From: a virus
DNA length: 28,423 bases
Virus record (IMG/VR): IMGVR_UViG_3300037246_001340
Span: 1 to 28,423 of that record
Strand: one strand, 5' to 3'
In this document: positions 571-27,376 of the stretch, one piece after another
Position numbering within the stretch: the first letter of the stretch is position 1
Layout of the letters: the number at the start of each line of letters is the position of its first letter
The notes under the pieces: generated by a model
Told to the model about the DNA's origin: nothing
What the model saw: only the letters and a program-made list of their open reading frames with translations
Databases searched by the model: none
Made by a program: the position numbers and the translations under genes

Positions 571-903
571 ATGTGGGATTCTCTCAACGAGGTACTTACC
601 GCGTTGCCACCGACCATGAAGGCGGTCTCCGCCCTCATCGGGTCTGCGTCGGTGGGCGCACTCGCGATGCTCGGTGTCGGGGGGTGGCTGGGCATCCCCG
701 CCAAAGTCGAAACCCAAACCCTGGACATCGCCCGCAACAGGGCATCGATCACCATTATGCAGGCCGACCTTGCCAACGGCTCGGCGGAACGGAGGCGGAT
801 CCTGTGCCTCATCGAATTGCAGCTTCGCGATATCGTGGTAGCTCCGCTCGAAGTGAACCGCCTGTGCCCCATAACCAGGTCGCGTACGGCGGGCGATGAC
901 TGA
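571..903 (+). CDS. Small membrane protein upstream of terminase
   Basis: The protein has 110 residues and starts at an ATG preceded by an AGAGAGG-like ribosome site. Residues about 19-43 (AVSALIGSASVGALAMLGVG and onward) form one credible membrane segment. The following 50 residues look like a helical, possibly coiled-coil soluble part (VETQTLDIARNRASITIMQ). This layout of one membrane helix plus a coiled coil is seen in small phage membrane proteins such as holin accessory or spanin-like proteins. No lipobox or Rz-type motif is present, so the role is unassigned. Its last 8 bases overlap the terminase start (ATGACTGA), implying translational coupling. Confidence 0.75.
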   Translation: MWDSLNEVLTALPPTMKAVSALIGSASVGALAMLGVGGWLGIPAKVETQTLDIARNRASITIMQADLANGSAERRRILCLIELQLRDIVVAPLEVNRLCPITRSRTAGDD

Positions 904-2398
904 ACAGAAGGTCGTCTGGAAGCCACTCAGTGAGCCCCAGAGGGCCTTCTGTGCCTCGACGGAGACTGAGGTTCTGTACGGCGGAGCCAAGGGCTGCGCG
1001 AAGAGTGACGCGATCCTGTTCGCCGCCCTCTCTCAGGTACACCTGGAGCGCTACAAAGCCCTGATTCTCAGGCAGACGTTTCCGGAGGTCCAGGAACTCA
1101 TTGACCGATCCCACCGCAGCTTCCCCGAGATGTCCAATCCGCCCAAGTGGGCCGGGGACCTGAGGAGGTGGACGTTCCCTGGTGGTGGCATTTTGCAGTT
1201 CGGATACTGCAAGACGAAGGATGAGGTCCAGCGCTACCACGGCCAGGAGTGGGCCTACATCGGGTTCGATGAGGTCGGCGACGTTCAGGACGAGCGCGTC
1301 TGGGTCATGCTCATGGCGGAGAACCGGTGCCCGAATCCGGAGGTGATCCGGATGATGCGCGGAACCGCGAACCCCGGTAAGCCTGGGCACCCCTGGATCA
1401 AGCGGCGCTTCATCGACAAGTGCGGGAAGAAGGGCGAGAAGATCTACAGGTTCAAGTACAAGATGCCCGGCGGCCTGGAGGCCACGATCAGCAGGCGTTT
1501 CATCCCGGCCAGGGTGACCGACAACCCCATCTACGCCAACGATGCCACCTACATGGCGACCCTGTTCAGCCTGCCCGAGATGCTCCGCCGGCAGCTTCTG
1601 TACGGGGACTGGGACGCGGGCTTCGGGATGGCGCTCGACGAACTCAACGAGGACATACACCTCGTGCGGGCGTTCCCGATCCCGCCCAACTGGATCCAAT
1701 TCGGAGCCTTCGACTGGGGCTTCAGCCACCCCTGGGTCTTCGGTCACTACGCCGTGAGCGAGGACGGCGTGATCTTCAAGGTGAACTCCTACACCGGCCG
1801 CCTGCAGTCCGACCGACTCATCGGCGAAGCGATCAAGCACCACGTCAACGTGGAGGATCTTCGCTACATCGTCGCTGGCCATGACTGCTGGGCCCACCAC
1901 GGTGCCCGTAGAGACGACACGACGCCCTCCACGTCCGAGAGATTCGCCGACATGGGCATCCACCTCACACGAGCGTCTGTGGCGCGTTACGCGGGCCTCA
2001 GGAACTTCAGGGAGCAGGTCGCTTACAAGGGCCAACTGGAGGGCGGAGACGATGGCGAGCCCAACTTCTACATCATGGACACGCCCGGCAATATAGGTTG
2101 CTTCGAGAGCATCCAGAACATGATCGTCAACCCGGACGATCCGGAGGACGCGCTGAAGGTGAACGCCGACCCGATCACCGGGGAGGGCGGAGACGACTTC
2201 TACGACGAGACGCGCTACGCCCTGGCCTCACGTCCCGGCCGCGCCAAGTCCAACTGGGCGGACCAGGAAGTGCGGGCGTTTGCACGCTCAACCCTCATGT
2301 TCGAGATGGAGAAGAGCCGCCGCCACACGAGCAGGGGCACGATCGTGACCCCACAGGACCAGGAACTACATGACCTATTCGTTGAAGGGATGATCTGA
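896..2398 (+). CDS. terL: Terminase large subunit (DNA-packaging ATPase/nuclease)
   Basis: This 500-residue protein is the motor that cuts concatemeric phage DNA and pumps it through the portal. The ATPase half shows a Walker A-type loop at residues 29-39 (GGAKGCAKSDA) and a Walker B at 121-126 (YIGFDE, with D125 and E126). A GTANPG coupling-type motif follows. The nuclease half has the expected spaced acidic residues: D273 in FDWGFSHPW, D330 in AGHDCW, and D433/D434/D437 in GGDDFYDE. Length and motif order fit Terminase_6-type large subunits. It overlaps the previous gene by 8 bases and the next by 1 (TGATG). The packaging type (cos, pac or direct terminal repeats) cannot be read from the sequence alone. 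Confidence 0.96.
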   Translation: MTEQKVVWKPLSEPQRAFCASTETEVLYGGAKGCAKSDAILFAALSQVHLERYKALILRQTFPEVQELIDRSHRSFPEMSNPPKWAGDLRRWTFPGGGILQFGYCKTKDEVQRYHGQEWAYIGFDEVGDVQDERVWVMLMAENRCPNPEVIRMMRGTANPGKPGHPWIKRRFIDKCGKKGEKIYRFKYKMPGGLEATISRRFIPARVTDNPIYANDATYMATLFSLPEMLRRQLLYGDWDAGFGMALDELNEDIHLVRAFPIPPNWIQFGAFDWGFSHPWVFGHYAVSEDGVIFKVNSYTGRLQSDRLIGEAIKHHVNVEDLRYIVAGHDCWAHHGARRDDTTPSTSERFADMGIHLTRASVARYAGLRNFREQVAYKGQLEGGDDGEPNFYIMDTPGNIGCFESIQNMIVNPDDPEDALKVNADPITGEGGDDFYDETRYALASRPGRAKSNWADQEVRAFARSTLMFEMEKSRRHTSRGTIVTPQDQELHDLFVEGMI

Positions 2399-4599: not shown

Positions 4600-4602
4600 G
4601 CC

Positions 4603-5478: not shown

Positions 5479-5485
5479 CTGAACC

Positions 5486-5905: not shown

Positions 5906-6714
5906 ACGAGGGTCTCCACGCATCGTCGCAGGGCGGATTCTTCCGCGTCCTCATCGATCAGGCCGACTTTTTCTTTCGGCTCGCGAAGGACGAGATTCCC
6001 AACGCCGGCTACATCAATAAGTTCGGCCACAACGAGGATGTGAGTACGGCCACGACGCCTGAGGACATGTGGCACATCGGAGGCCTCTGGGTGCCTCCTA
6101 CGCAAGCCCGGATCCACAACCTCACCAGCACTGAGGTCAACGACACGATCCTCGGCTCAGGGGCCCGAACGGTGAAGGTCACTGGCCTGACCGCCTGGGA
6201 CCTGCTCCCGGTCACCGAGATCGTCGAGATGGACGGCCAGGGTGACGTGCCCACGGACAACGCCTATGTGATAATCTACCGGATGGAGGTGCTGACATTC
6301 GGGGCGCTGGCCGAGAATGAGGGCCTAATCACAGCTACTGCAGTAACCGACGCCACGATCACGGCGTCGATCGAGGAGAACCACGGCCAGACCATGATGG
6401 CCATTTTCGGGATTCCGGCGCAGCAGAGCCTGCAGTTGTTGAGCTACTACATTGGCTGGAGCCGAACCGGTGGGGCGTCCAACAACGCTGGCGTAACTTT
6501 GCGCGTGAATCAGAGGCCCGACCAGGCGGACGGAGGCTTCGTCGCGAAGCACCACCTGGGCCTCTTCGGGGGGGGAAACACCTATATCCAGCACAAATTC
6601 AAGCCGTATTTCGTCATCGAAGGGCCTGCAATTGTCAAGGTCCAGATCGATGACGTGAGCGCCAACAACACGGACCTCACCGCTGGCTTCGACGGGATCA
6701 TTGTTACAAACTGA
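5902..6714 (+). CDS. Conserved phage virion protein of unknown role
   Basis: This 270-residue protein has the features of a family common in environmental phages. These are an NKFGHNEDVSTATTPEDMWHIGG motif near residues 40-62 (here split over several residues), a beta-rich middle (GSGARTVKVTGL), and an IPAQQSLQLLSYY segment near residue 175. Relatives are usually described as hypothetical structural proteins; a capsid-surface or tail-surface location is plausible. It overlaps the previous gene by ATGA. The C-terminus is again beta-rich and ends with FDGIIVTN. There is no catalytic motif. The next gene, the portal, follows after 28 bases that include an AAGGGA ribosome site. Confidence 0.85.
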   Translation: MNEGLHASSQGGFFRVLIDQADFFFRLAKDEIPNAGYINKFGHNEDVSTATTPEDMWHIGGLWVPPTQARIHNLTSTEVNDTILGSGARTVKVTGLTAWDLLPVTEIVEMDGQGDVPTDNAYVIIYRMEVLTFGALAENEGLITATAVTDATITASIEENHGQTMMAIFGIPAQQSLQLLSYYIGWSRTGGASNNAGVTLRVNQRPDQADGGFVAKHHLGLFGGGNTYIQHKFKPYFVIEGPAIVKVQIDDVSANNTDLTAGFDGIIVTN

Positions 6715-6742
6715 TCGGGAACGACTCTAAGGGACGGACGAC

Positions 6743-9127
6743 ATGGCTCTTTCATCTACACGCTTCGGGGGAGGCAGCGGATCCTCGACCACGACGCTCG
6801 CGCCTGGTGGGAAGAGCTTCACGTTCGATGAGATCCCGGACATTCGCGAGGAGAGCGAGGACGGTCACGGCACGCCCGACGAGAGTGACAACGACCGCAT
6901 AGGGTGGGCGACCTTCCTCTTCGACTCTCAGGACGACGTACTCAGGCGCTGGATGCGTCAGGTGGAGGAGAACGTCAGGATGTTGGCGGGCCAGCAGTGG
7001 TCGGTCTTCAATCCCCGCATGGGCCGGTTCGTGGACGTTACCCAGTGGATGACCGCCGAAGAGAAGAAGTGGCGTCAGAGGCCGGTGTTCAACCGCCTGC
7101 TAACGTGGTTCATCATCACACATGCGAGGATGACGGAGAACCCGCCGATCGTCACGTTCACGCCGGGGCCTGACCGCATCGACGCCATGCTTGCCGCCAC
7201 GATGGACGTGATCTTCAAGACGAAGTGGCGCGAAGTGAAGATGGCGGAAATCTGGGACCGGGCGAGCGCCTGGCTGATTCCGGCCGGCATGGTCTATCTG
7301 CAGAGCACCATCGACCTGAACAAGGGCGACTTCATCCGGTTCGAGGGCCAGCCATCGGAGGAAGACCTGGAGGGGTTCAGCACGGAGCAGCAGGACGTGC
7401 TACGAGAGTTCCAGGGCGGCGAAGAGAACATCGGCTTCGACGCGGACGGGAGGCCACAGTTTGACGAAGAGACCGGTCAGGTAATGGGCCCTGAGTCTGG
7501 CTTTGCAGAGCGAAAAGGCGACCTGGCGGTGGAGGTCCTGAACCCTGTGCAGGTTCGTGGCGAGTGGGGACCGAGTCCCTGGCACGAGAAAAGCTGGCAC
7601 AGCGTGCGGAGCTTCCTGACGAGCGCCGAGGTCTTCGAGACCTACGGCGTGAGACTCACTGGATCTTCTACGCCCAAGGTCGGTGGCAGCAACACCGGAG
7701 TCGCCGAACGCCTCACCTACGGTGACGGATACTTCGGGGCCGCAGATCCTGCGGTATTCGGTGGCGGCTTCAGCGCCGACGTGACGATCCCAGAGCCCAC
7801 GCATGAGGTCTTCACGCTCTGGCACAAGCCAGCGCCCTACGCTCGCATGCAGGAGACCCCGGAAGAGCCCGGCGGCCGGCTGTTGGTGGTCACTCGCAAA
7901 GAGGTCCTGCACGACAGCACGCGCCCAGTGCGCTATCCCAGCACGAGCCCCATACGGCGCTTTGAGTTCATTCGTCTCCCAGGGCGGCCCGCCAGTGGCT
8001 CGACGCCTCAAGAGGCCATGAACCAGCCCCAGAGGGTCTTCAACAAGGTCGCAGCGCTCATCATCGAGCACACGAACCTGTCCGCGAACCCGATCAAGAT
8101 CATCGACACGAATAGTGGCATCGAAGAGAGCATGATCACGAACCGGCCCGGCCTGAACCTGAAGGTGAACCGCCGGGACCGGATCCCGCCGTTCGAGTGG
8201 GTCGCTCCGCCCCCGCTTTCCCAGGACGCCTACCGCACCCTGGAGTTCATGCGGAACGAGATCGATGACATCGGGAATCTGACTGGCACCGAAGGTGAGA
8301 CGCCCACCCAGGATGCGTCCGGTGAGCTAATCAAAGAGCTTCGGTTCAACTCAGACCGCTTCCTCGGCCCCACGATGCGTCGGGCTGCAGAAGAGATGGC
8401 CAGGATGGCGGAAGACTGGAAGGTCATCCTCCCCGTCATCTACGATGAAGAGCAGATCCTCACGTACGCCGGGGCCGACAACGTCGCCCGTACGATCGTG
8501 GTGCAGCCCGAGATGTTCGAGCAAGGCTCCGTGAACGCCCTGGCCGACGTGGAATCGATGCTCCCAGAGGGCAGGGGCGAGCGCCAGAAGAACATCACGG
8601 CCCTCTACGCCAACGGGCTCTTCGGTGCCCCAGGCACCCCTCAGGCCACGGCCACCTTCTTCGAGCTTTCCCAGTTCCCACACCTCGGTCGAGCCGGCAA
8701 GTTCGGTGGAGTACACCGGATCACGGCAGACCAGGAGAACGGCAAGATCCTGCAGGGGGTTCCTGCGATGGAGATCCCTGTGTTCGAGTGGTACAACGAC
8801 CTGGTCCACCTCCTCTCCCACGAGGAATTCATGTCCTCGCCGGAGTTCCTGGAGTTGGATCCGACCATTCAATCCCAGTTCGATATCCACAGGAAAATGC
8901 ACATCATCAACATCACGATTAAGACCCAGCAGTCCGCAGAGGCCGACCCCGATGGTGGCGAGGCTGGAGACAACCAGTTCAGTGGGAACGATCGCCCCGA
9001 GGGCGGTGGTGCTGCCGGGTCACCTGAAGGCGCTGCGACTTCGAGTTCGAGTCCAGCGGTCACACCTGGATCCGCAACCCGGAATCCTGAAGGCATCCAA
9101 GAGGCACCAGCAGCGGCGGGCCAGTAG
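6743..9127 (+). CDS. Portal protein (P22-like)
   Basis: This 794-residue protein is the predicted dodecameric DNA gateway at one capsid vertex, which docks terminase and later the tail. Typical P22-type portal features are visible: an N-terminal helix with LRRWMRQVEENVRMLAGQQW, RQRPVFNRLLTWFIITHARMTENPP soon after (two adjoining segments), and a long wing/stem region with FNKVAALIIEHTNLSANP and NLTGTEGETPTQDASGELIKEL. The family is usually about 700-750 residues. The extra length is in a Ser/Pro/Ala-rich low-complexity tail after residue about 740. Position immediately before scaffold and capsid genes supports the call. A ribosome site (AAGGGA) lies about nine bases upstream of the ATG. Confidence 0.93.
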   Translation: MALSSTRFGGGSGSSTTTLAPGGKSFTFDEIPDIREESEDGHGTPDESDNDRIGWATFLFDSQDDVLRRWMRQVEENVRMLAGQQWSVFNPRMGRFVDVTQWMTAEEKKWRQRPVFNRLLTWFIITHARMTENPPIVTFTPGPDRIDAMLAATMDVIFKTKWREVKMAEIWDRASAWLIPAGMVYLQSTIDLNKGDFIRFEGQPSEEDLEGFSTEQQDVLREFQGGEENIGFDADGRPQFDEETGQVMGPESGFAERKGDLAVEVLNPVQVRGEWGPSPWHEKSWHSVRSFLTSAEVFETYGVRLTGSSTPKVGGSNTGVAERLTYGDGYFGAADPAVFGGGFSADVTIPEPTHEVFTLWHKPAPYARMQETPEEPGGRLLVVTRKEVLHDSTRPVRYPSTSPIRRFEFIRLPGRPASGSTPQEAMNQPQRVFNKVAALIIEHTNLSANPIKIIDTNSGIEESMITNRPGLNLKVNRRDRIPPFEWVAPPPLSQDAYRTLEFMRNEIDDIGNLTGTEGETPTQDASGELIKELRFNSDRFLGPTMRRAAEEMARMAEDWKVILPVIYDEEQILTYAGADNVARTIVVQPEMFEQGSVNALADVESMLPEGRGERQKNITALYANGLFGAPGTPQATATFFELSQFPHLGRAGKFGGVHRITADQENGKILQGVPAMEIPVFEWYNDLVHLLSHEEFMSSPEFLELDPTIQSQFDIHRKMHIINITIKTQQSAEADPDGGEAGDNQFSGNDRPEGGGAAGSPEGAATSSSSPAVTPGSATRNPEGIQEAPAAAGQ

Positions 9128-9159
9128 ACCCCCCGCGAAAATAACCTGGAGGTACGACA

Positions 9160-10458: not shown

Positions 10459-10483
10459 CCCTCTGAATTAAAGGTTGGGGATC

Positions 10484-11833
10484 ATGGCCAGTGCGACAAC
10501 TACGACCAGTGCCATCACCGAAGCGATGAAAGTCATCTTCGCTGACCCCCTGATCACGAACATCGTCGAGGACTCCGAGTTGCTGTCCATTTTCCAAACG
10601 GACATGAACGTCAACGTGGACGATACGACTGGTGGCCGGTACATCGAGATGGCTCACTACTTCCAGCTTCCGGCTGGCGTAGGGGCCCGTGGGGAGAACG
10701 AGTACATCCCCGAGGCCGATGACCCCGTCTTCAAGAACTCCAGGCTCTTCCTCAGGAAGATCCAGGGGACCGTGGAGATGACCGGCGACACGATGCGTCG
10801 TGTGGTGGGTGATGAAGGTGCTTTCATCAATTACATGGAGCGGGCCCTTCCGGACCTCGTGACCAGGTTGGTCAACGAGATCGATCGGATGTATATCGGC
10901 TTCGGTGCCGGTATCAAGGCTCGCGCCGAACTCACTCCGGTACGCCCCTCCTCGGGCGTGCTCGAAGTAACCGTCAACCGCGCACTCGGCGTGGACGGCT
11001 TCACCGACGCCTTCCTGCAGTTCCTGGAGGGCGAGCGGATCGTCTTCGACCCGGCTGCAGACGGCCAGACGCTCACGACCGGAGGCGGCTTCCAGTCGCT
11101 CAGGGTCACGGACATCGATGAGGACAACAACCTCATCACCTTCGTCGGAAACGACACCCTGGTGGCGGCCATCGTGTCTGCAGGGGCAGATCAGTATCTG
11201 TTCCCCGGCGACGAGGCCGGAACGTCCACCCAGAACTCCTCGGGCGTCGATCGAGAGATCGCCGGGCTGATGGCTGGTGCGGACGACGGCGGGATCATCG
11301 CCACGTACAACAACATCTCTCGGACTGGTGCCAATTCCAGGCTGTGGAAGTCCATCATCATCGATGGGTCGGATGCGGTTTGGGGCGGGCAACTGACGGA
11401 AGAGTTGCTGAGTTTCGCGGACGATGAGGTCGCCGTGAAGGGCGCGGGCAAGATCGACACCATCGTGTCGTCTCGTTCCGCCGCTCGTGGGTACTGGCAG
11501 TCCCTCAAGGGCGACCGGGTCTTCAACGACCCGAGGAGCTTCTCTGGGGGCAAGGGCGGCCTGAGCATCCTCCTGGGTGACCGCGAGGTGCAGATGAAGG
11601 TGGCGCGTAAGCTGCCGCCTGAGGTCTGTTTCGCTCTGCAGGCCGATACCTGGCGTCGGTTGACGTTGGGTACGTGGGACTGGGACGACCGTACGGGATC
11701 CATCTGGAACAGGGTCATCGACGCGGTCGGCCGGAAGGATGCGTTTTTTGCAGCGGGGAACATGTACGAGCAGTTGTTCTGCACGGCCCCGAGAAAGAAC
11801 GTCCGCATCGACAATCTGAACGCGGCGTTCTAG
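10484..11833 (+). CDS. Major capsid protein
   Basis: I place the start at ATG 10484 (MASATTTTSAITEAMK), which has AAAGG about nine bases upstream, rather than at the in-frame TTG at 10475. The 449-residue product follows the scaffold, as expected for the HK97-fold coat protein that forms the icosahedral shell. Supporting features are an N-terminal helix with LITNIVEDSELLSIFQ, a GARGENEYIPEADDPVFKN stretch that fits an E-loop-like region, and the segment SRLFLRKIQGTVEMTGDTM followed by a long helix (INYMERALPDLVTRLVNEID). A YQ-type C-terminal segment (AAGNMYEQLFCTAPRKNVR) closes it. Identification rests on order, length and fold-like features. A UUCG-capped hairpin follows the stop codon. Confidence 0.88.
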   Translation: MASATTTTSAITEAMKVIFADPLITNIVEDSELLSIFQTDMNVNVDDTTGGRYIEMAHYFQLPAGVGARGENEYIPEADDPVFKNSRLFLRKIQGTVEMTGDTMRRVVGDEGAFINYMERALPDLVTRLVNEIDRMYIGFGAGIKARAELTPVRPSSGVLEVTVNRALGVDGFTDAFLQFLEGERIVFDPAADGQTLTTGGGFQSLRVTDIDEDNNLITFVGNDTLVAAIVSAGADQYLFPGDEAGTSTQNSSGVDREIAGLMAGADDGGIIATYNNISRTGANSRLWKSIIIDGSDAVWGGQLTEELLSFADDEVAVKGAGKIDTIVSSRSAARGYWQSLKGDRVFNDPRSFSGGKGGLSILLGDREVQMKVARKLPPEVCFALQADTWRRLTLGTWDWDDRTGSIWNRVIDAVGRKDAFFAAGNMYEQLFCTAPRKNVRIDNLNAAF

Positions 11834-16387: not shown

Positions 16388-17893
16388 ATGCCGATCAAGC
16401 CCGTTCTCCCGGACCTGGAAATCGAGTACGACGCCAGGAACATCACGGTGGCGGATCTCGCGACCGTCACGCTCTGGCCGGATTCCAGCGGGAACGCAAA
16501 CGACGCCACCCTGATCACGGGCTCGCCCCAGTTCCAACAGCGAGGCTGGGTGTGTGACAACCAGTTCGCGGATGCGGTGGAGTTCGTGATCTCTCCCGCC
16601 GAGGTCCTGGGCTTTGACGGAACCCCGTTCATCAACACGGACATGACCTGGTTCTTCGTCGGCGAGATCACGGACTTCGCTGTAGGGCTGCTCTTCACGG
16701 GCGGCACGGCACCTGGTAACGCCACGAGGAGCATGGTGCAGGCGTTCGCCTGTGGCACCAACTGCGGTCTCGATGCCGGGGCCGTGGGTGTCGCGATGTT
16801 CGACACCGACCCTGGCAACCCGTCTGATATCATTTCTGCACCCGGTTTGGTGGAGCAGGGCAGCAAGTTCATCCTCACCTATCGGACTGATGCTGCAACG
16901 CTCACTGGCAAGATCCTCCGGCTGAACGGCGAGCAGGTTGCCTTCCTGTCCGACCGGAGGAAGCTGATAAGCTGGCCGGGTGCTGCCATGAACCGGGTCC
17001 TCTCGTCCCTGCATGGAAGCGGAAGGGTCCTGTGGATCTCTGGGCACACGTCGGCGCTCTCAGATTCTGAGATCGTCGCCATGGAGTCCTACCTGGCCGG
17101 GTGCTTCCCGTGCCTTGGCGCGAGCCTGCTTGTGGGCTGCAAGCCGCCGGTCTCCACGACCTGGTCGGCCTGCGATGCGGAGCCTGGCCCTCCTCCGGTC
17201 CCGAAGCCGGAGATCGCTGGACTCGAAGTCGAGTTCGACGCTCGCGAGATCGTCGGGCTCTCGGACCTGGAGTCGATCGTCACCTGGCCAGACAGCAGCG
17301 GGAATGCCAACGACGCGACCGCGAGCGGCACCCCCACGTACGAGGCGACCGGATGGGTCGAGAATGCCCTCCCGGACGTGCTGATGGACAAGGTCGCCGG
17401 GAACGACTTCTTCGCCTTTGACGGCTCGGGATTCATCGGGACGGAATTCTGCTGGTTCTTCGTCGTCGAGGCAACCTCGCTGGCCGCAAGCGTGGTCATA
17501 ACCGGCGGATCGAATGTCGGCAATCTGCAGTGCATTGAGATCGCGATCCTGTCCAGCGGCGGCATCCTGTTCAGCAAGAACGTCTCGGAGACCGGCGCTG
17601 ATGTCGCCACCACTGCGACAGGGCTGGTATCCGAAGGGGATCGCGTCATCATCACCTGCCGCCACACAAATGCGGAGGGCATGATCATCCGCCTGAACGG
17701 CACCCAGGTTGGGGTGGCCGCTGGTGGCGTGAACGACTTGAATGGCTGGCCGGATCCGTTCATCGGCAACATCATCAGCGTTGCCTTCAGCACCGAAGCC
17801 AGGCTAGCATGGCTCTCTGGGTACACGAGCGATGTCTCGGATGCGGACATTCTGCTCATGGAAGAGTTCCTGGACAGCGTCTGGTTCGCCTAA
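16388..17893 (+). CDS. Tandem lectin-like (LamG/concanavalin-type) virion protein
   Basis: This 501-residue protein contains two copies of a domain of about 230 residues. Copy 1 starts LEIEYDARNITVADL with TLWPDSSGNANDAT. Copy 2 starts LEVEFDAREIVGLSDL with TWPDSSGNANDAT. Each copy continues with FDGTPFINTDMTWFFVGEI or FDGSGFIGTEFCWFFVVEA, then a RLNGEQV or RLNGTQV strand, and ends WISGHTSALSDSEI or WLSGYTSDVSDADI. This is the pattern of LamG/concanavalin-like jelly rolls, which bind glycans. A linker with four Cys (CFPC, GCK, ACD) and a Pro run joins them. Probably surface-exposed and receptor-binding. The next gene starts at the TAATG overlap. Confidence 0.85.
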   Translation: MPIKPVLPDLEIEYDARNITVADLATVTLWPDSSGNANDATLITGSPQFQQRGWVCDNQFADAVEFVISPAEVLGFDGTPFINTDMTWFFVGEITDFAVGLLFTGGTAPGNATRSMVQAFACGTNCGLDAGAVGVAMFDTDPGNPSDIISAPGLVEQGSKFILTYRTDAATLTGKILRLNGEQVAFLSDRRKLISWPGAAMNRVLSSLHGSGRVLWISGHTSALSDSEIVAMESYLAGCFPCLGASLLVGCKPPVSTTWSACDAEPGPPPVPKPEIAGLEVEFDAREIVGLSDLESIVTWPDSSGNANDATASGTPTYEATGWVENALPDVLMDKVAGNDFFAFDGSGFIGTEFCWFFVVEATSLAASVVITGGSNVGNLQCIEIAILSSGGILFSKNVSETGADVATTATGLVSEGDRVIITCRHTNAEGMIIRLNGTQVGVAAGGVNDLNGWPDPFIGNIISVAFSTEARLAWLSGYTSDVSDADILLMEEFLDSVWFA

Positions 17894-20472
17894 TGCCGAT
17901 CATCCCACTCCCCTTCGGTGAGGGCCTTCGCAGGTCCGATGGCAGAATGGTCGTCGCGCCCAACACCTTCGACGATCTTCGCAACGTGTACCAGTACGAG
18001 GGCAAGGCTCAGGTCCGCGCAGGCATGACGGAAACCGACCGACTGCTCCACGGGAACGAGGCCACCGGGATCCTGACCCTGACAGGGCAGCCCGGTGACA
18101 CCGAGACGGTCACGATCGACACCAAGGTCTACACGTTCCAGACGGTCCTCACCGACGTGAACGGAAACGTCTTCATCGGTGCTACGGCCTCGGATTCGTT
18201 GGACAATCTCATCGCTGCGATCAACCTGGACGCTGGGGCCGGTACGCTCTACGCCGCCTCGATGACGCTGCATCCCACCGTGGAGGCATCTGCAGGCACA
18301 GGTGACACCATGGATGCGATCGCCAAGACCGCCGGGCTCGCGGGCGACAGCATCGCCACCACCCAGACCCTGACCAGTGGGACGTGGGGCGAGGTGACGT
18401 TGACGCGGGACCTGGACGTGGCGCTGGCGCTTTCTCCGCTCCGCTCTGAGAACGCGGCCGTGGGCGTGGGGCAGATCACGGTCAATCCGGACCCCCTGCT
18501 GATCGACGAGATATGGGTGAACCGCCTCAGCATCGGAGGGCTAAACGCCACCGAACTCGGGCTCTACGGCCAACTGGCCGGAGGTTTCACGTTCAACCCG
18601 CCGATCATCATCCTGGCGGACTCCGACAACAAGGTCTTCATCGCCCACGACGAGCCGAACGTGAGCGCTCGCCTGGTCACGAAGTATTACGACCCGACTG
18701 CGTTCCCCCAGCTAGTCGATCTGCAGGCCGATCTCGACGGTGACGGCCTGGCGGACGTGTTCTTCCGGGGCGTCGTTCGGCACCTGAGCTACATCTTCGG
18801 ATGGGGTTACGGGAGTGCCCTTGAGCCCGACCGCATCGACGTGGTCCGTGTGAGCGATGGCGGCAATCCGACGATCTTCAAGGACTTCGGTTTCTTCGAA
18901 GCCGGCCAACGCGGCGAGCCCGTGATGGTCTGTCGCCCTGCAGGAAAGTCTCTGATGGTTTTCAAGGAGACCGAGACATACCAGATATTCGGGTACTCTC
19001 CAGACACGTTCGGAATTCGGCCTGCAGATACGCTATTCGGCTGCGTCGGGTCTCGATTGGCTGTCAGTGTTTCTGGGACTGTGTTCTTCTGGAGTGTCCA
19101 GGGTCCTCGGATTATCACAGGCGGTGCAGATTCGGTGGACATCGCCGTACCGCTCGACCTCGACGGCCCGGATCCCGCCACCCTGGTAGCGGAGTCCGAC
19201 CCCCAGGACGCCTTCGCCGAGTACGACCCCGCGACGAGGGTGGTCAACTTCGTCTGGGGGAAGCGTGTCTACGCCCTGTCGATCAGGAACCAGAGTCGCC
19301 CGAGGTGGAGCTATTACGAACTCCAAGAGACCGCTCAGTGTGGCGCTCAGTTCTTCGACACCCAGAGCACTGCCGGTGGTGGTGGACAGCCTGCAGATGG
19401 GCCCGTGTTCGGCTCGCTCACGACGCTCGACTCGGAGAGCATCCAGGTAGACTGGGACAACATCGGCGCGACCGGCGGGGAGCAGATCGAGATCCACGTC
19501 TCCTCCGATGGCAAGGTCTCGTACCTGCAGTTGGGTGAGGTGACGTACGACGGCACCGCACAGCAGACCGCCGTGATCACCGGGCTCCAGCCGAACACGT
19601 TGTACGACTTCAGCCTCCGGTATCGCCGTGCGGGCCTCTACAACCCCAGCGCATCTCCTGGCGGAAGCGATCCCAGCACCTGGCCCGCTGGCGCTCAGTC
19701 GTCCATCACCACTCCGATCGGGCTTCCCGCTCCGATCCTGAGGGGCGCAAGCAACGGCACTTGGGAGCCAACTGGGATAGGGACCCAGCAGATCACGATC
19801 GGATGGACGATCCCCGCTGGCCACTCCCTGTTGGACATCGAAGTCGAACGTAGGATCTACACAGAGGGGCTGACTACCACCCAGGACGTGGACGGTCGCG
19901 GCATAGGCCCACCGGACACCGCTGGGGTTCCTGGTGCCTTCGGGGCCCTGGTGACGCTCCCCGCCGGCACGACCGAGTACGTGGACACCGCCATCACGTC
20001 CCACCGTTGGCATGAGTACAGGTTCCGGTTCGTGAGCGGCACGCCGTACACGGCCGTCATGCCGTGCTGGGCTGGGCCCGACGCTCCGGCTGCAGATTGG
20101 ACTGCGATCGGCGCTGGCATCAGGGACCGGTTCGAGTCAGCGTGGACCAACGCTAACCAGCCCATCGGTCGCTTGCTCTGCCCTGGTCCCGTGAACCCAC
20201 CGGACAACCACGTCACGCTCGGGTACACGAACAACATGACGCAGACCGCAACGTCCGATAACTGGCTGGTCGGCGAGACCTGGGAGCAGGCACCACCGTA
20301 CAACACTGCAGGCATCACGACCGTCAAGGAAACCCCGGCTGGAGATGACGAGACTGCACGCATCGGCCTGCGCCACGAGGTGACGTGTTTCGGGACGGTT
20401 TACCCAAGCTACTGGGCCAAAGTCACGGCGACGGCGAACTACCGTGTGGGCCTCGTGGGGCCAGCGCTCTAA
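17893..20472 (+). CDS. Large tail protein: repeat module, propeller-like core, two fibronectin-type domains
   Basis: The start is ATG 17893, overlapping the previous stop; the longer upstream frame is spurious. The 859-residue product begins MPIIPLPFGEGLRRSDG, an opening typical of P22 gp10/T7 gp12-like tail hub or stabilisation proteins. Residues 58-170 hold the module found twice in the 3436 gene. Residues 171-500 are beta-rich with blade-like segments (HLSYIFGWGYGSA, RGEPVMVCRPAGKSLMVFKE, FGCVGSRLAVSVSGTVFFW), consistent with a propeller. Residues about 505-605 and 611-722 look like fibronectin type III domains (GLQPNTLYDFSLRYR, TSHRWHEYRFRFVSG). Likely the tail tube or hub with surface-exposed binding domains. 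Confidence 0.87.
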   Translation: MPIIPLPFGEGLRRSDGRMVVAPNTFDDLRNVYQYEGKAQVRAGMTETDRLLHGNEATGILTLTGQPGDTETVTIDTKVYTFQTVLTDVNGNVFIGATASDSLDNLIAAINLDAGAGTLYAASMTLHPTVEASAGTGDTMDAIAKTAGLAGDSIATTQTLTSGTWGEVTLTRDLDVALALSPLRSENAAVGVGQITVNPDPLLIDEIWVNRLSIGGLNATELGLYGQLAGGFTFNPPIIILADSDNKVFIAHDEPNVSARLVTKYYDPTAFPQLVDLQADLDGDGLADVFFRGVVRHLSYIFGWGYGSALEPDRIDVVRVSDGGNPTIFKDFGFFEAGQRGEPVMVCRPAGKSLMVFKETETYQIFGYSPDTFGIRPADTLFGCVGSRLAVSVSGTVFFWSVQGPRIITGGADSVDIAVPLDLDGPDPATLVAESDPQDAFAEYDPATRVVNFVWGKRVYALSIRNQSRPRWSYYELQETAQCGAQFFDTQSTAGGGGQPADGPVFGSLTTLDSESIQVDWDNIGATGGEQIEIHVSSDGKVSYLQLGEVTYDGTAQQTAVITGLQPNTLYDFSLRYRRAGLYNPSASPGGSDPSTWPAGAQSSITTPIGLPAPILRGASNGTWEPTGIGTQQITIGWTIPAGHSLLDIEVERRIYTEGLTTTQDVDGRGIGPPDTAGVPGAFGALVTLPAGTTEYVDTAITSHRWHEYRFRFVSGTPYTAVMPCWAGPDAPAADWTAIGAGIRDRFESAWTNANQPIGRLLCPGPVNPPDNHVTLGYTNNMTQTATSDNWLVGETWEQAPPYNTAGITTVKETPAGDDETARIGLRHEVTCFGTVYPSYWAKVTATANYRVGLVGPAL

Positions 20473-20981
20473 TGGCCGGCACGCCTATCCCCACCCTGTT
20501 TTTCGGGGGCCGAGACGTAGTAGCTGGCGTCCTGAAGACGAACGACGGCTTCAAGGACAACACGGTCGATTACGCGGTCCTGGCCAAGTCGAATCCGGTG
20601 GCCCCTGTCGGAGCCGCTGGAGAGTGCATCTTCAAGAACGTCTACATCACCCTGACCCACTCGATGGCCGTCACGGTGAGGTTCGTCCCCATCGTGGACT
20701 TCGTTGCGCTGGATGGCACGGGTGGGCAGCCAGACGAGAGGCTCTCCATCGTGCTCCCGGATCTCACGGGGCCCGGCAGGCTCACTGAGCGCTTCGAGAT
20801 GGGCCTGTCGCTACCCTTCCCACTGACAGGTACGGAGCGCATCAGAAATGCGCTGCGTGGTGCCTGGTTTCAGTTGCAGGCCGAAACCGTTGGCTCACTG
20901 GCGGCAGGGGATTTGATCTTCGAGCAGATTGAACTTGACTACGAGGTGGTGCGCGAGAGTTTGGTCGCGGAAACGCCGTAA
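20472..20981 (+). CDS. Conserved phage tail-region structural protein
   Basis: The start is the ATG of a TAATG overlap with the large tail gene. The 169-residue product is probably a single beta-sandwich: GRDVVAGVLKTNDGFKDNT, YAVLAKSNPVAPVGAAGE, FKNVYITLTHSMAVTVRFV, and a C-terminal strand FEQIELDYEVV. Small proteins of this look commonly follow the propeller-type tail gene in environmental phages, and I regard it as a tail accessory or distal protein. There is no enzymatic motif. Downstream are 39 non-coding bases before the ejection-protein genes, the second clearest break in the operon. Confidence 0.82.
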   Translation: MAGTPIPTLFFGGRDVVAGVLKTNDGFKDNTVDYAVLAKSNPVAPVGAAGECIFKNVYITLTHSMAVTVRFVPIVDFVALDGTGGQPDERLSIVLPDLTGPGRLTERFEMGLSLPFPLTGTERIRNALRGAWFQLQAETVGSLAAGDLIFEQIELDYEVVRESLVAETP

Positions 20982-21020: not shown

Positions 21021-21593
21021 ATGGCTAGAGACGATTTCTTCACCCGTCAACGCCCGAAGCTGGAGGAGGAGTTCACCTCACTCCGCGAGGGTCTCGGTGA
21101 TCGTGCCACAAGGGCCTCAGAGGCTGGCGTGGCCGGCGCGGAAGCGTTCGACCCATCCCAGGCGGTCACCAACTTCGGCAGCGGCTTCCTGGACGAAGCA
21201 CGCGAAGGCCTCGGGCAGGACTTCGAGTCCCTGGTCGGGGAGTCGGTCGGATCCGGGAGGCTCCGCACGGGGTTCTTCCAGCGGGACGCAGGCCGCCTCT
21301 TCCAGGACTTCAACCGCCGGGTGTCCAACGCGATCGCCCTGCAGTCGCTTGAGGCCTCGCGCCAGAGCCTCTCGAACATCCAGGGGCTCCAGCGCACCGG
21401 TAGCGACCTGCTCGGCCAGCAGATCGACGTACTCGGGGGCGCATTCGATCGCTCCACTGCAGAGGAGAACGCCAAGGGCGGCAGTCTCTTCGGGAGAATC
21501 TTGGGAGGAGCGGCCGGGCTCGTCCTGCCGGGGGTGGCCGGTAAGGTCGCCGGGAAACTCGGTGACAAGGTCTCAGGGGCGCTCGGGCTATGA
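21021..21593 (+). CDS. Internal virion (ejection) protein, small
   Basis: This 190-residue protein is Gln/Arg/Ala-rich and helical, with a GSGRLRTGFFQRDAGRLFQDF segment (split at residues 76-96) and SLEASRQSLSNIQGLQRTGSDLL. The C-terminal 45 residues are Gly/Val/Leu-rich (GRILGGAAGLVLPGVAGKV) and could insert in a membrane. This fits the small ejection proteins of podoviruses (T7 gp14-like, P22 gp7-like), which leave the virion with DNA and help build a trans-envelope conduit. An AGGGG sequence ten bases upstream serves as the ribosome site. It overlaps the next gene by ATGA. Family assignment is by character and order. Confidence 0.8.
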   Translation: MARDDFFTRQRPKLEEEFTSLREGLGDRATRASEAGVAGAEAFDPSQAVTNFGSGFLDEAREGLGQDFESLVGESVGSGRLRTGFFQRDAGRLFQDFNRRVSNAIALQSLEASRQSLSNIQGLQRTGSDLLGQQIDVLGGAFDRSTAEENAKGGSLFGRILGGAAGLVLPGVAGKVAGKLGDKVSGALGL

Positions 21594-22711
21594 CCTTCCG
21601 TCCTTCGGTGGTTCCGGACAGGGACAATGACATCGTCTCGACGTTCACCAGGAGCTTCGAGCGTGCCCGCAATCTCGTACGTCAGGATCAGGCAGATGTG
21701 AGGGAGCGGAAGGCGTTCGATCTCGAACAGCGCGTGCGTACACAGGCCCTGGAGGACCGTGAGTTCGAAGCCGGAGTCAGGCGTGGTCAGCCGGGCGTGT
21801 TCAGGACCGATGGAGGTGCCGGTCAGGCCGGTGGCGCAGAGCCGATCGCTGAAGCGCTGGGGGCGGCAGGGGCCGTCTCTCCGGCGTTCGGTCCTGACCT
21901 CGGGGCCGTTCGTGAGGTCGCGAAGGGTGGCGTAGGCGTACGCACGGAACCTGGCCCTGCAGATGCAGTCGATGTCGGGGGCGGGTTCGCGTTCTCCCGC
22001 AGGATGCAGCAGGAAATCGAGGCCGGGGAACTCCTCACTGAACAGGAGGCCGAAGAGGTCTCGCCTGCAGCGGAGCGTGAGGGGCTGGAGACCAGGGCGG
22101 AGGCGCGTAGGCTTCGCGGCGAAGAGCGTACGGCGGAGGCGGAGGCCACCGGGCGAGAGCACTCCAAGGCGAACGCGCTGCGTGCACAGTTCCCAGACGA
22201 GCTTGAGGGCATCGCCGACGACGTTCAGGTCATCGAGCAGGGTAGGTTGCTCGTACAGCAGGCCATTCGTTCGACGCCCACGGGATCCCAGATCACGAGC
22301 GCGGGCACCCGTAGGGACCAGTCGAGGGCCGCCATCCTGGCCAACTTCCAGAGGAAGCTGGCCGTGCAAGAGCGTGAGGCGAGCGGTCAAACGCTGGGCG
22401 AGAGAATGATCGCCAAGCGTCTCGGAGAGACCCCTGCCGAGATCGATCGCGGAGAAATCATGCGCGAGACGATCCGTGAATCTGCAGCGGCAGGGGACAT
22501 TACGGCCGCAGAAGCACAGAACCTCATGGGCGACGTGGAGGCCATGCTGACCGAATCGAGTGCGACCGGTCCTGCTGGCGGTATCCTGTCCCAGTCTGAG
22601 ATCGAGGCATTTGCGGCTGCAGTTGAGGACCTCCCGGCGGCAGAGAGGGATGCGGAACTCCGCGACCTCGGGCTCGACGACGACGCCATCAAGCAGATCC
22701 TTGGCGGGTAG
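21590..22711 (+). CDS. Internal virion (ejection) protein, mid-size
   Basis: The product has 373 residues and overlaps the previous gene by ATGA. It is almost wholly helical and highly charged: residues 15-65 (RSFERARNLVRQDQADVRER), 150-200 (ELLTEQEAEEVSPAAEREG) and 255-290 look like coiled coils. A flexible Gly/Ala-rich region lies at 75-135. No membrane segment or enzyme motif is evident. Placed between a small glycine-rich ejection protein and a giant polyvalent protein, it matches the middle member of podovirus ejection cassettes (T7 gp15-like, P22 gp20-like) by order, not by sequence recognition. Confidence 0.8.
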   Translation: MTFRPSVVPDRDNDIVSTFTRSFERARNLVRQDQADVRERKAFDLEQRVRTQALEDREFEAGVRRGQPGVFRTDGGAGQAGGAEPIAEALGAAGAVSPAFGPDLGAVREVAKGGVGVRTEPGPADAVDVGGGFAFSRRMQQEIEAGELLTEQEAEEVSPAAEREGLETRAEARRLRGEERTAEAEATGREHSKANALRAQFPDELEGIADDVQVIEQGRLLVQQAIRSTPTGSQITSAGTRRDQSRAAILANFQRKLAVQEREASGQTLGERMIAKRLGETPAEIDRGEIMRETIRESAAAGDITAAEAQNLMGDVEAMLTESSATGPAGGILSQSEIEAFAAAVEDLPAAERDAELRDLGLDDDAIKQILGG

Positions 22712-22714
22712 GCC

Positions 22715-25700
22715 GTGCCAACCCAGGCCCCAGCCGCCAGAGGTCAGGACGCTCTAGCTGCAGCGAAGAGACGCCGGGCCCTGCGGGAAGCCAAGAAGCG
22801 CCGTGAGGCCAGGACGAAGACCGGCACCGGTAGTGCACTAGACCAGGTCCGCTCGGACGTTGCAGTCGATGCGCCTCGGGACACTACGGGCAGCAGGTTC
22901 AAGGCAGCCACGGGCCCGGACACGAAGCTCGCCGATCTCGCGACTTCTGGTGCCGCACAGATCCTCACCCGAACTGCAGAAGGGGTCACCAAGCTGGGGC
23001 GGACGGTCCTGGAACTCGGTCAGAGGATCGGAATCGACGACCCGACTCGTACGCCCCAGGCGGTAGCCAACCTACGGGCGAGAGAGGAACTCCTCGCAGA
23101 GGTCCTGCCTGAGCCGGAAGGCAAGGTCGGGCAGATCGGCGCGGCCCTCGTGCGCGAGGCTCCATCCTTCCTGGCGGCATCGGTGCTCTCGGCTGGTGCG
23201 GCGGGACCGGCGAAGGCCGCCTCGTTTGTAGGCCGTACTCTGCACAGGGCCAAGCGAGGGGCGGGACTCGGAGCCGCGTTCGAGGTCACGAGCGGGGATG
23301 TCCTGGAGGAGGGCCTGGTCGGTGTGGCCAAGGAAGCTGCCCTCTTCGCCGGGCTCGAAGCTGGCATCATCGGCCCGTTGGCTGAACTCATCCTCCCGAG
23401 TGGTGCTCGTGCGGTGGCCAGGAGACGCGCTGCAGCGGGCAAGGACCGCGCTCGGGTCCTGAAGGCCAACAGGGAGAGGCGTACAGGCGCGAGGCTCGTC
23501 GCAGAGGGCGCTGAGGGCCGTGTAGGGCCAGAGAGACAGCTTGGGCCGGGTGGTGAGGCCCCCCAGGGTGCCATACCGGCGACAGGCGACATAGCTCCCC
23601 TGCGTGAGCGCGTCTTCCCTGGCACAGAGCCCGCCCGTCGTACCAGGGCCTTCGTGGGACCGGAGAGGGCAGAACTTATCTCCAGTCCTCCGGAATTCTT
23701 CGCGCCAGAGACGCCCGTCAGGCCCTCCCGTCCCACTGGCGTGACAGGTGCAGCCGAGAGAATCATGGCCACGTCACCGCCTACGCCCGTGGGCCAGAAG
23801 CGCTCGCTACGTCGGCGACTCGCTGAGGTGATCGACCCCAGCATTTCCAGCGAACTGGAGTCGGCATTCACCGACCAACTCACGGGCCTGCGTAACCGAG
23901 ACGCCTGGCTGATCGCCCGGCCTCGTATCGAGGCTGATCCCAACCTGGAACTGACGTTCATCGACCTGATCAACTTCAAGGGCTGGAACGACATCGTGTC
24001 CAGGGAAGCCGGCGACCAAGCGCTCCGGAAGGCGGCTAAGGATATCAGACGCGCATCGGGAGTGCCGGAGAGAGACATCTTCCGCGCTGGTGGCGACGAA
24101 TTTGTGGTCGTGTCGAGGCGTGGTACCGGCGAGGGCATAGGCAGGAAGATCGCTGATGCGATCGGCGAGACGCCCATCGGCGACAGCGGCCTGATCTCCA
24201 GCGCACGCTTCGGGGTCGGCCCCAATCTTGAGGCTGCAGATGCAGCGATAAACCTTGCGAAAAAGGCTGAAGCTGGCCCCCGTTTCCGTACTACGGGCAG
24301 CGGGAGTCTTTCGCAAACCACACCTCTCCCGAGGGTTCTCCCGAACTCCAAGAACGCACTGGCCACGAGGAAGGCCTCGACCCGCCAGGCCACACGCGCA
24401 CGGGTGGTGTCGGAGCCTACGCCCACCGGCCGTGCAGCGAACAAGCCGCCAGCGAACGCTGAGAAGGGACCCGGAGGTCCCGTAGACAACACAGTCGAGC
24501 AGACGACCGGCAAGGTCATCCCGAATGAGCGGACGCAAAGCACCCGCCTCAAGCAAGCTCTCGTCGAGGGCGAGGGCGGCTTCGCCGAGGCCACTCGCGA
24601 CGTGATGGAGATCCGGCCAGAGACCGGCCTTTCCGCCCACTCGGGTCGTATCCAGAACCAGATCAGCGTGGGCGAAGGCGGCAAGACGCTTCGCGAGCGA
24701 CTGCCCAGCATCCTGGACATCTACACCAGCCTGGTACGACGCACCGCCGGGCTCGAATCTGCAGGCAAGAAGCTGCGTGGCAGGCGGCCGGATGTCGTCA
24801 CACAGAACGACATTGAGGCTGCTGTTGGTCTCTCGACGGGGAGCGCCCGTAGGGCTGAGGCCTTCCTGGAGTATGGCCCCGGACGCTGGACTCGGGACGG
24901 CAACTGGGAGGTCACTGGTACGCCTGGGCTCATGGAGATCCTCGCGCCCCTGCGTGGCAAGCTCAACCAGTTCCGACGCTACACCCTCTCGAAGCGTACG
25001 ATCGAGGTAGGGCGGAGGGACATTCAGACCGGCATCTCGCTGGACGACGCGGCCCTGGAAGTGAGCGGAGCTACCGGTGAAATAGCTCAGGCCCAGCGTC
25101 AGTCGGTCGAGTACCTGAGGGACGTGGCCAGGTACTACGGTGAGGCCACCGACATGCCAGCCAAAAGGCTGGAGGGCATGTTCGCTCTCGGTGAGGACTA
25201 CATGCCCCTGGGCAGGGTGTTCGAGGGCAAGGACCCCCTGGAGATCGCCGGAGGTGGCACGGTAGGCAAGCCTGGGCGTGTGTTCGAGCGCCTCACGGGT
25301 AGCAAGCGCCGGGTCGTCGATCCGATCGAGGCCATGGTGGACTACACCAACCGGCTGATTCGGGCTGCAGATATCAACCGGATCGGGCGGACTCTTGTGG
25401 ACGCGGCCGAGGCGAACCCCGAGGCGGCGGTGGGCATGGTGCAGCGGATCGAGCGGATCCCCACCAACCAGGTCACGAAGGCAGCCGAGAATCTGCAGAG
25501 GTCAGCCGCCGGCAGGGGCCGTGAGATGTCCATAGAAGAGGCCACAGAGCTTGCGGAGGCACTGGGTGCCGACCAACTCAACCTGGCCGACGACGTGATC
25601 CGTGTGTGGCGTGAGGGCGAGCTTCAGGCCTTCCGTGTTGCGCCCTCCATCGCCAAGGGCATCCGGGCGATGCAGCCGAAGGACATGGACATGTTCCTGC

Positions 25701-27376
25701 AGTTGATGGCCGTCCCGGCGCGGCTGGCGCGGGCTGGGATCACCCTGAACCCCGGCTTCCAGGGATTCAACATCATCCGGGACACGTTTGACGCTGCAAT
25801 TCAGAGCCAGTACGGCTTCCGCCTCGGTGTCGATTCGTTCATCGGTTTCTACGAGTCGTCGAAGGCGACCTGGTTCGGCAGGCCCTCCAAGATCTACAAG
25901 GAGTTCGCCTCTGCTGGTGGTGGATTCTCCACGGAACGTGGGGCGGGACGGATCACGACTCAGGCACAGATCCGGAAGCTCTTGCCCAAGGTGGAGAGCA
26001 GGTCTGGCAGGACGATCGACGTGTTGACGATCCCGATCCGCCATCCCGTGCAGGCCCTGAAGGAAATGGCCACACCGTTCGAGGAGGCGGCCCGGATCGG
26101 CGAGTTCATGCGAGCGAAGTCCAAGGGTGCCAACACGGTGCAGAGTGTGCTGGCGTCGAAGAGCGTGACGGTGGACTTCCAGCAGATCGGCTCGCAGATG
26201 CAGGGGATGGCTTACGTCACCAAGTTCCTGAACGCTGGGATCCAGTCCCTGGACACTGCGGCCAGGGTGGGCATCCGGCCAGTGACCAAGGCGATTGCCG
26301 CCAAGGCCGGCGGAGAGACCAACGCTGAGGCTGCAAAAATCCTCTCGAAGGAAGCTCTCAAGGTCTACGGAACAGCCATCGCAGGCATCTCGATCCCGTC
26401 CATCTACTTCTGGGCTGCATCGAGAGACGACGTTGAGATCACCGACCTCCGGAAGAGCAACGCTGGCTTGATCTATTGGTTCTACCGCGATCCCTCTAGG
26501 GTGGACGTTGACGGCAACCCGGAGATCAATCGGATGCCGAAGCCGTTCCTCTGGGGGCAGATCTTCGGTACCGGCATGGAGGCCATCCTCGACCAGTTGT
26601 GGGACGAGGACCCGGAGGCCATGGCTCGCTTCGCTACGGGCGTGCGCGAGCAGGCGACGGTGAACATGTTCCCGGACGCGATCGTGATCCCCGCAGAGCA
26701 GTGGGCGAACAAGGACTTCTTCTTCGGCACGCCGATCGTCCCGGAGGAACTTGAGGGTGCAGAACCGGCGCTCCAGGCCACCGACCGCACCACCAAGATC
26801 GCCCGCAAGCTGGGCGAGATCTCCAACGTCGCCCCGGTCAGGCTGGAGAAGGTCTTCAGGGACGTTCTTGGCACGCTGCCGGCGGATCTCCTGAGGTACG
26901 TTGACCAGTCCATCGACCGGTTCGAGGGTGATGCCATCACCGATCCCGCGCCCGTGGCTGCAGACATGCTGTTCTTCGGCCGGTTCACTGCCCGCACTCC
27001 CAGCCTGAGCGTGCTCCCGGTGCAGACCTTCTGGGAGAACGCCAGGAAGTCAGAGCAGGCGCTGGAATCGTTCAAGATCGTCGAGGGCAACCAGGCGAAG
27101 ATGGACGACCTTTTCGATCGGCGGTTCGAGGACTTCGTCGTGGCCGAGATCTACGAAGGTAGCAGGCGCAATATCTCCGAAATCCGGAACAGCATCGACG
27201 CCGTCCGCGTGATGCCCGACGCGCTCTTCCGTGAGGGCGACGACGTGGCTGTGGCCAAGCGCCAACTGATCAACGAGTTCGTGAGGCAGTACGTAGAGAT
27301 CGCCCGGATCACCAACGAAGTGGCTGCAGAAATTATCGGAGCTATCCCCCCGAAACCCGACGCTGAAGCAAACTGA
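22715..27376 (+). CDS. Giant ejected polyvalent protein with GGDEF diguanylate cyclase and LPD38-like domain
   Basis: The GTG start lies 3 bases after the previous stop; the product has 1,553 residues. Residues 1-40 are basic. Residues 149-227 are hydrophobic and may insert in membrane. Residues 383-520 are a GGDEF domain: DQLTGLRNR (387-395), FIDLINFKGWND (415-426), AGD (432-434), GGDEF (459-463) and AADAAINLAKKAEAG at its end. Aligned to PleD, D417, N425, D434, R457, D461 and E462 match the catalytic and guanine-binding residues. The RxxD inhibitory site is absent. Residues 520-600 are a linker. Residues about 970-1330 resemble the LPD38 domain of phage polyvalent proteins (ARAGITLNPGFQGFNIIRD). 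Likely ejected with DNA; cyclic di-GMP synthesis is inferred. Confidence 0.9.
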   Translation: MPTQAPAARGQDALAAAKRRRALREAKKRREARTKTGTGSALDQVRSDVAVDAPRDTTGSRFKAATGPDTKLADLATSGAAQILTRTAEGVTKLGRTVLELGQRIGIDDPTRTPQAVANLRAREELLAEVLPEPEGKVGQIGAALVREAPSFLAASVLSAGAAGPAKAASFVGRTLHRAKRGAGLGAAFEVTSGDVLEEGLVGVAKEAALFAGLEAGIIGPLAELILPSGARAVARRRAAAGKDRARVLKANRERRTGARLVAEGAEGRVGPERQLGPGGEAPQGAIPATGDIAPLRERVFPGTEPARRTRAFVGPERAELISSPPEFFAPETPVRPSRPTGVTGAAERIMATSPPTPVGQKRSLRRRLAEVIDPSISSELESAFTDQLTGLRNRDAWLIARPRIEADPNLELTFIDLINFKGWNDIVSREAGDQALRKAAKDIRRASGVPERDIFRAGGDEFVVVSRRGTGEGIGRKIADAIGETPIGDSGLISSARFGVGPNLEAADAAINLAKKAEAGPRFRTTGSGSLSQTTPLPRVLPNSKNALATRKASTRQATRARVVSEPTPTGRAANKPPANAEKGPGGPVDNTVEQTTGKVIPNERTQSTRLKQALVEGEGGFAEATRDVMEIRPETGLSAHSGRIQNQISVGEGGKTLRERLPSILDIYTSLVRRTAGLESAGKKLRGRRPDVVTQNDIEAAVGLSTGSARRAEAFLEYGPGRWTRDGNWEVTGTPGLMEILAPLRGKLNQFRRYTLSKRTIEVGRRDIQTGISLDDAALEVSGATGEIAQAQRQSVEYLRDVARYYGEATDMPAKRLEGMFALGEDYMPLGRVFEGKDPLEIAGGGTVGKPGRVFERLTGSKRRVVDPIEAMVDYTNRLIRAADINRIGRTLVDAAEANPEAAVGMVQRIERIPTNQVTKAAENLQRSAAGRGREMSIEEATELAEALGADQLNLADDVIRVWREGELQAFRVAPSIAKGIRAMQPKDMDMFLQLMAVPARLARAGITLNPGFQGFNIIRDTFDAAIQSQYGFRLGVDSFIGFYESSKATWFGRPSKIYKEFASAGGGFSTERGAGRITTQAQIRKLLPKVESRSGRTIDVLTIPIRHPVQALKEMATPFEEAARIGEFMRAKSKGANTVQSVLASKSVTVDFQQIGSQMQGMAYVTKFLNAGIQSLDTAARVGIRPVTKAIAAKAGGETNAEAAKILSKEALKVYGTAIAGISIPSIYFWAASRDDVEITDLRKSNAGLIYWFYRDPSRVDVDGNPEINRMPKPFLWGQIFGTGMEAILDQLWDEDPEAMARFATGVREQATVNMFPDAIVIPAEQWANKDFFFGTPIVPEELEGAEPALQATDRTTKIARKLGEISNVAPVRLEKVFRDVLGTLPADLLRYVDQSIDRFEGDAITDPAPVAADMLFFGRFTARTPSLSVLPVQTFWENARKSEQALESFKIVEGNQAKMDDLFDRRFEDFVVAEIYEGSRRNISEIRNSIDAVRVMPDALFREGDDVAVAKRQLINEFVRQYVEIARITNEVAAEIIGAIPPKPDAEAN

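Follow-up and report, generated by a model that had tools for sequence, protein, structure and literature searches.

Phage polyvalent proteins carrying a GGDEF domain were recognized by Iyer et al. in 2017 (PMC5512222), who listed LPD38 among the domains of such proteins, predicted their delivery at invasion, and proposed that they may interfere with host nucleotide responses or serve in a response against rival elements. Their example, WP_004096050.1 from an Acetonema longum prophage, places a GGDEF domain in a giant multidomain phage protein. Within the podophages, the DarB-like protein gp69 of JC1, of the Bcep22-like group, is the last gene of its virion module and has LPD38 near its C-terminus (residues 4195-4401), and 51 unique peptides of it were detected by mass spectrometry in CsCl-purified virions (PMC9144972). 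Phages also carry annotated solo GGDEF proteins (Pseudomonas YuA gp44 and MP1412, Bordetella FP1/LK3, and Bacillus phage G gp350), which are small and free-standing and, in YuA and MP1412, are encoded upstream of and outside the terminase and structural genes. In a Bordetella study, lysogens reportedly formed more biofilm, with the role of the GGDEF gene there unproven. A literature search by set phrases, covering few subscription papers and no preprints, returned nothing on phage-encoded diguanylate cyclases or on such enzymes in ejection proteins, and we found no experimental test of a GGDEF domain in a phage polyvalent protein in the literature searched.

The locus described here lies in a viral record 28,423 bases long, with 63% G+C, which was analyzed at full length and is referred to as the window. 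Its 1,553-residue protein resembles WP_004096050.1 in the fusion of GGDEF to a large phage protein; however, the latter also contains SWI2/SNF2, methyltransferase, peptidase, and ART domains, whereas only GGDEF and LPD38 are seen by Pfam in the window protein, and the window phage differs in that its portal is P22-like and that several relatives share its synteny. It shares with JC1 gp69 the LPD38 domain and the gene position, yet gp69 has 4,515 residues, among them regions resembling lytic transglycosylases, methylases, and helicases, and a GGDEF domain has not been reported in it. The solo phage GGDEF proteins are approximately 34-36% identical to the window domain by tblastn. The original prediction for this DNA knew of no described virion-delivered diguanylate cyclase; this has to yield to the 2017 work as far as the idea is concerned and holds in that the work was a prediction only. 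The window protein is thus not a first description; to the 2017 prediction it adds a setting among syntenic virion genes and the exchange of one effector for another, besides enlarging the family.

A polyvalent protein at the end of the virion gene module

The window presents a module of terminase, P22-like portal, and head protein, followed by weakly matched internal-virion-type genes and then by the 1,553-residue ORF as its last large gene, with small ORFs downstream (Table 1). The two PHROG families matched by the gene at 17809-20472 are virion structural and internal virion protein families; its product also shows a sub-threshold fibronectin III/purple acid phosphatase N-domain match at residues ~536-609. 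Searches for Rfam RNAs and tRNAs found neither in the window. The polyvalent gene stands 3' of the same terminase-portal-capsid module in four relatives (G005, G006, G001, and G002); the terminase, portal, and head protein of G005 are 84%, 82%, and 89% identical to those of the window.

Table 1. Features of the window, and the GGDEF polyvalent proteins of related records (positions refer to the window unless another record is named)
Feature	Positions	Strand	Evidence or content
Terminase large subunit	896..2398	+	PHROG 979, E 5.5e-39
P22-like portal protein	6743..9127	+	Pfam E 1.6e-11; PHROG 156
Major head protein	10475..11833	+	PHROG 14242, E 1.1e-26
Virion-module gene upstream of polyvalent gene	17809..20472	+	Weak: PHROG 3287, E 1.8e-5; PHROG 511, E 4.4e-4
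Upstream gene	20385..20981	+	Homologues in same module of relatives
Upstream gene	21021..21593	+	Order kept in G005 and G006; weak tape-measure-like match, PHROG 973, E 0.003
Gene immediately 5' of polyvalent gene	21590..22711	+	Homologue at same place in G005
Polyvalent protein, 1,553 aa, GTG start	22715..27376	+	Pfam GGDEF and LPD38; PHROG 9854, E 1.2e-47
Hydrophobic stretch, residues 201-228	23315..23398	+	Kyte-Doolittle window >1.4; weak
GGDEF domain, residues 384-520	23864..24274	+	Pfam, AlphaFold, Foldseek, VIA-align
D417, equivalent of PleD D327 (first metal Asp)	23963..23965	+	PleD alignment; invariant in seven polyvalent GGDEFs
GGDEF signature, residues 459-463	24089..24103	+	Direct reading
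Conserved C-terminal backbone, residues 613-1547	24551..27355	+	phmmer/BLASTP to L005, L006, L001, L002, L014
LPD38 domain, residues 1268-1407	26516..26935	+	Pfam PF18857, E 1.2e-20
L001 (G001)			2,906 aa; GGDEF and LPD38 (Pfam)
L002 (G002)			2,738 aa; GGDEF and LPD38 (Pfam)
L003 (G003)			1,814 aa; GGDEF; no LPD38 by Pfam
L005 (G005)			1,744 aa; GGDEF and LPD38 (Pfam)
L013	6530-15118 (own record)		~2,864 aa; GGDEF, ddrB-ParB, weak acetyltransferase match; no LPD38 by Pfam
L014			2,354 aa; GGDEF and LPD38 (Pfam)

The ORF is intact and its start lies 3 bases past the stop of the preceding gene. Since LPD38 and an effector domain occur in one long protein, it is classified from its sequence as encoding a phage-type polyvalent protein of the LPD38 type. 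None of its PHROG matches gave a named function. The C-terminal backbone is common also to phages without GGDEF; an AlphaFold model of it (953 residues, six sequences) had a pLDDT of 43, too low for a fold search. Toward the N-terminus, the hydrophobic stretch could possibly be a membrane-active segment.

A genuine GGDEF fold

It is virtually certain that the window protein holds a genuine GGDEF fold. Pfam GGDEF (PF00990) matches residues 384-469 with an E value of 9.5e-9, at 35.7 bits against a curated cut-off of 23.8, and PleD is the top match of a phmmer search against PDB sequences (E 1.7e-8). The AlphaFold model of residues 362-545, built from 48 rows, has a core pLDDT of 97-98 and the helix and strand order of a palm-type GGDEF domain, and VIA-align superimposes it on the isolated GGDEF domain of WspR (3i5b) over 138 residues at 2.4 A (Z 17.2) and on PleD (2v0n) with Z 15.7. 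The domain extends to about residue 520 and includes a last helix with K516. The original prediction, which had read GGDEF signatures at residues ~383-520 and proposed the Pfam search and a structure prediction, is therefore borne out on each of these points. A motif arising by chance was considered and rejected, as, given the composition of the protein, the expected number of exact GGDEF 5-mers is 0.002.

Active site and absence of the inhibitory site

With this fold and catalytic core the domain is like WspR and PleD, and it differs from them in lacking a receiver or sensor domain, an I-site, and, by hand alignment, an R446-type residue, and in being fused to a virion-type backbone. Across the seven polyvalent GGDEF domains, D417, K422, N425, G460, D461, and E462 are invariant; the window additionally keeps D426, D434, R457, and G459, and R430 is present. 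The metal Asp, the exact GGDEF signature, and the guanine-contact pair N425 and D434 expected of a diguanylate cyclase are thus all found. Direct reading confirms the 17-residue spacing from D417 to D434, the exact signature at residues 459-463, and the retention of D417, N425, D434, R457, D461, and E462, as had been predicted.

Two departures from the consensus had also been noted and were placed in context by comparison with relatives. The His of GHxxGD is indeed Arg in the window; the four closest relatives have L, L, M, and E at this position, and L013, L014, and the cellular sequences retain H. The second Asp of DxD is Ile419, as had been read; this position is D, T, E, or N in relatives and D or N in cellular sequences. 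The side-chain metal ligands of PleD are D327 and, in GGEEF, the third residue, and the change to Ile is a mild one in which no metal side chain is lost. Hand alignment further places K516 at the position of PleD K442 and A520 at that of R446, the phosphate-contact Lys and Arg of the last helix; the absence of the R446 equivalent did not figure among the residues originally named.

The I-site RxxD is missing, as predicted, with V450 and R453 at the positions of PleD R359 and D362, and product inhibition through RxxD is consequently removed. The proposal that any synthase would be unrestrained is nevertheless overstated: some cyclases are active although they have no I-site, and cyclization requires the pairing of two GGDEF domains. 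Judged by its residues, the active site is mostly intact; whether the domain is catalytically active we regard as evenly balanced on the same residues and, were it active, cyclic di-GMP would be the likely product.

Relatives and erosion of the motif

Relatives were gathered from IMG/VR scans, partly by motif patterns, and motif conservation among them is inflated because most were found in this way. Seven long GGDEF polyvalent proteins were retained: the window protein, L001, L002, L003, L005, L013, and L014. GGDEF occurs in 4 of the 28 LPD38-type loci from one of the scans, all four being among these seven. Two long GGDEF ORFs in which no LPD38 was found (L017 and L023) were excluded from the family count, and cellular diguanylate cyclases from a genome scan served as comparison only. 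Two further viral-contig candidates were rejected as resembling host-type cyclases, namely L016, with a dCache sensor domain, and L020, with dCache, PAS, HAMP, GAF, and EAL domains.

In some sister proteins the motif has decayed. The GGDEF domain of L005 (6234-6662), a protein found via its LPD38 part too, is degenerate, reading RPRSTGDEF with TG for GG, a 2-residue insert immediately ahead of this, and ND changed to NT; L013 has HG for GG; and L003 and L014 have N at the guanine-contact D434 position. From these sequences, activity may be dispensable in places, as fits an accessory effector, or may have been lost in part of the family. Many cellular GGDEF domains are degenerate sensors, and it could be speculated that the domain here likewise has little or no catalytic activity and serves either to sense GTP or nucleotides by binding them or as a structural spacer within the virion protein. 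The erosion in these four sisters and the A520 substitution speak for such a role; however, the degenerate members are others, and the window itself keeps the metal Asp, the DE pair, K422, N425, and D434, so that we consider it rather unlikely for this protein. As an observation apart, L005 is the closest full-length relative and offers itself as a candidate inactive form, whereas the most canonical domain is that of L001.

The D434 position affects base choice in other GGDEF domains, and its replacement by N in two relatives would be in keeping with an active domain that makes another product (linear pppGpG, a cGAMP-type or a mixed dinucleotide) and thereby decoys or competes with CBASS, Panoptes, or type III CRISPR. 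Such a product is improbable for the window, where N425 and D434 both suit guanine, even though polyvalent proteins are regarded as effectors in conflicts and Iyer et al. counted disturbance of the nucleotide responses of the host among their proposed uses.

A tree of 48 GGDEF rows unites the seven polyvalent domains and L015, a 248-residue viral protein, in one clade (95/95), within which the window clusters with L001, L002, L003, and L005 at 100/98, the bootstrap being not fully settled. As the polyvalent GGDEF domains form one phage clade, the domain is by its phylogeny no recent acquisition from a host and has been retained in phages through deep divergence, with an identity between phages of 44-50%. 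Within the domain dN is lower than dS, in line with this retention, and dN/dS of ~0.3-0.45, a rough guide only since dS is near saturation in most pairs, is no lower than in adjacent parts; purifying selection that is only moderate adds to the case for a weak or dead domain considered above.

What stands ahead of the backbone is itself variable. The L006 (G006) protein has a backbone 44% identical to that of the window and a Zeta toxin/AAA_33 match in place of GGDEF, and most other LPD38 proteins have an N-terminal half without a Pfam match. Because the region is occupied by a domain of the Zeta toxin type in this sister phage, the N-terminal half looks, on sequence grounds, like a swappable effector slot ahead of a constant backbone. 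Relatives of the C-terminal half occur in cultured phages of Pelagibacter, Vibrio, Bacillus, Thalassomonas, and others; all matches listed for cultured phages begin past residue 700, and the GGDEF region is thus not common to them.

Probable packaging and delivery, and a proposed function

JC1 gp69 was likened to the window protein through shared LPD38 and gene position; tblastn with the window protein gave no Burkholderia phage among the matches listed. Since JC1 virions contain an LPD38 protein whose gene is similarly placed, it is likely by analogy that the window protein is packaged as well; the JC1 finding is the strongest evidence for packaging of this protein class. In the Pelagibacter phage HTVC034P, the homologue lies 3' of the tail tubular genes and immediately 5' of the tail fiber gene, two genes past one that is internal-virion-B-like. 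Given presence in the virion, delivery into the host is probable from the protein class and gene position. It is conceivable that the protein instead stays out of the cytoplasm, or acts late or in lysogeny, with the cyclase working in the producing cell, in which the product of a virion-module gene is made late. With LPD38 proteins being virion components in JC1 and the gene position agreeing with ejection proteins, we regard this as quite unlikely.

We propose that the LPD38 C-terminal backbone would place the protein in the virion among the internal (ejection) proteins, its N-terminal effector slot being filled here by a GGDEF nucleotide cyclase. At infection the protein would pass into the host along with the DNA; there, pairing of two GGDEF domains on GTP could yield cyclic di-GMP or a related dinucleotide. 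Synthesis would precede phage gene expression and might bias the envelope or motility state of the host or its nucleotide-based defense. That the protein is a GGDEF effector which is packaged, delivered, and to some degree active on nucleotides or able to bind them we hold to be somewhat favored. The fuller reading, of a lineage with a virion-borne active diguanylate cyclase that imposes a cyclic di-GMP pulse moments after DNA entry from a swappable slot, is tentative, as we infer catalysis, product, and benefit to the phage, the first from residues only. If true, some phages would reset a host second messenger ahead of any gene expression of their own, and the earliest moments of infection would be linked to motility, envelope state, and cyclic-nucleotide defense. 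A family in which one backbone bears GGDEF domains that look intact, degenerate ones, and replacements by other domains makes the 2017 prediction testable.

Other contents of LPD38 proteins

The Zeta toxin/AAA_33 match of L006 lies at 5931-6392, residues 567-720 of the ORF at 4233-9728, in its N-terminal half. Another LPD38 protein, L132 (4108-9804), carries in its N-terminal half a strongly matched histidine phosphatase domain (His_Phos_1, E 1.5e-40) and a Zeta toxin match, and L138 has a weak nucleotidyltransferase match. The LPD38 protein L129 (5987-12700) has a RadC-like JAB domain; RadC was listed only in the polyvalent proteins of conjugative elements by Iyer et al. (PMC5512222). Finally, a Synechococcus phage gene annotated as RelA/SpoT (OQ594354.1, 23473-24159) matches the LPD38 backbone and, if this annotation holds, would represent another nucleotide-signal enzyme on the same protein type.
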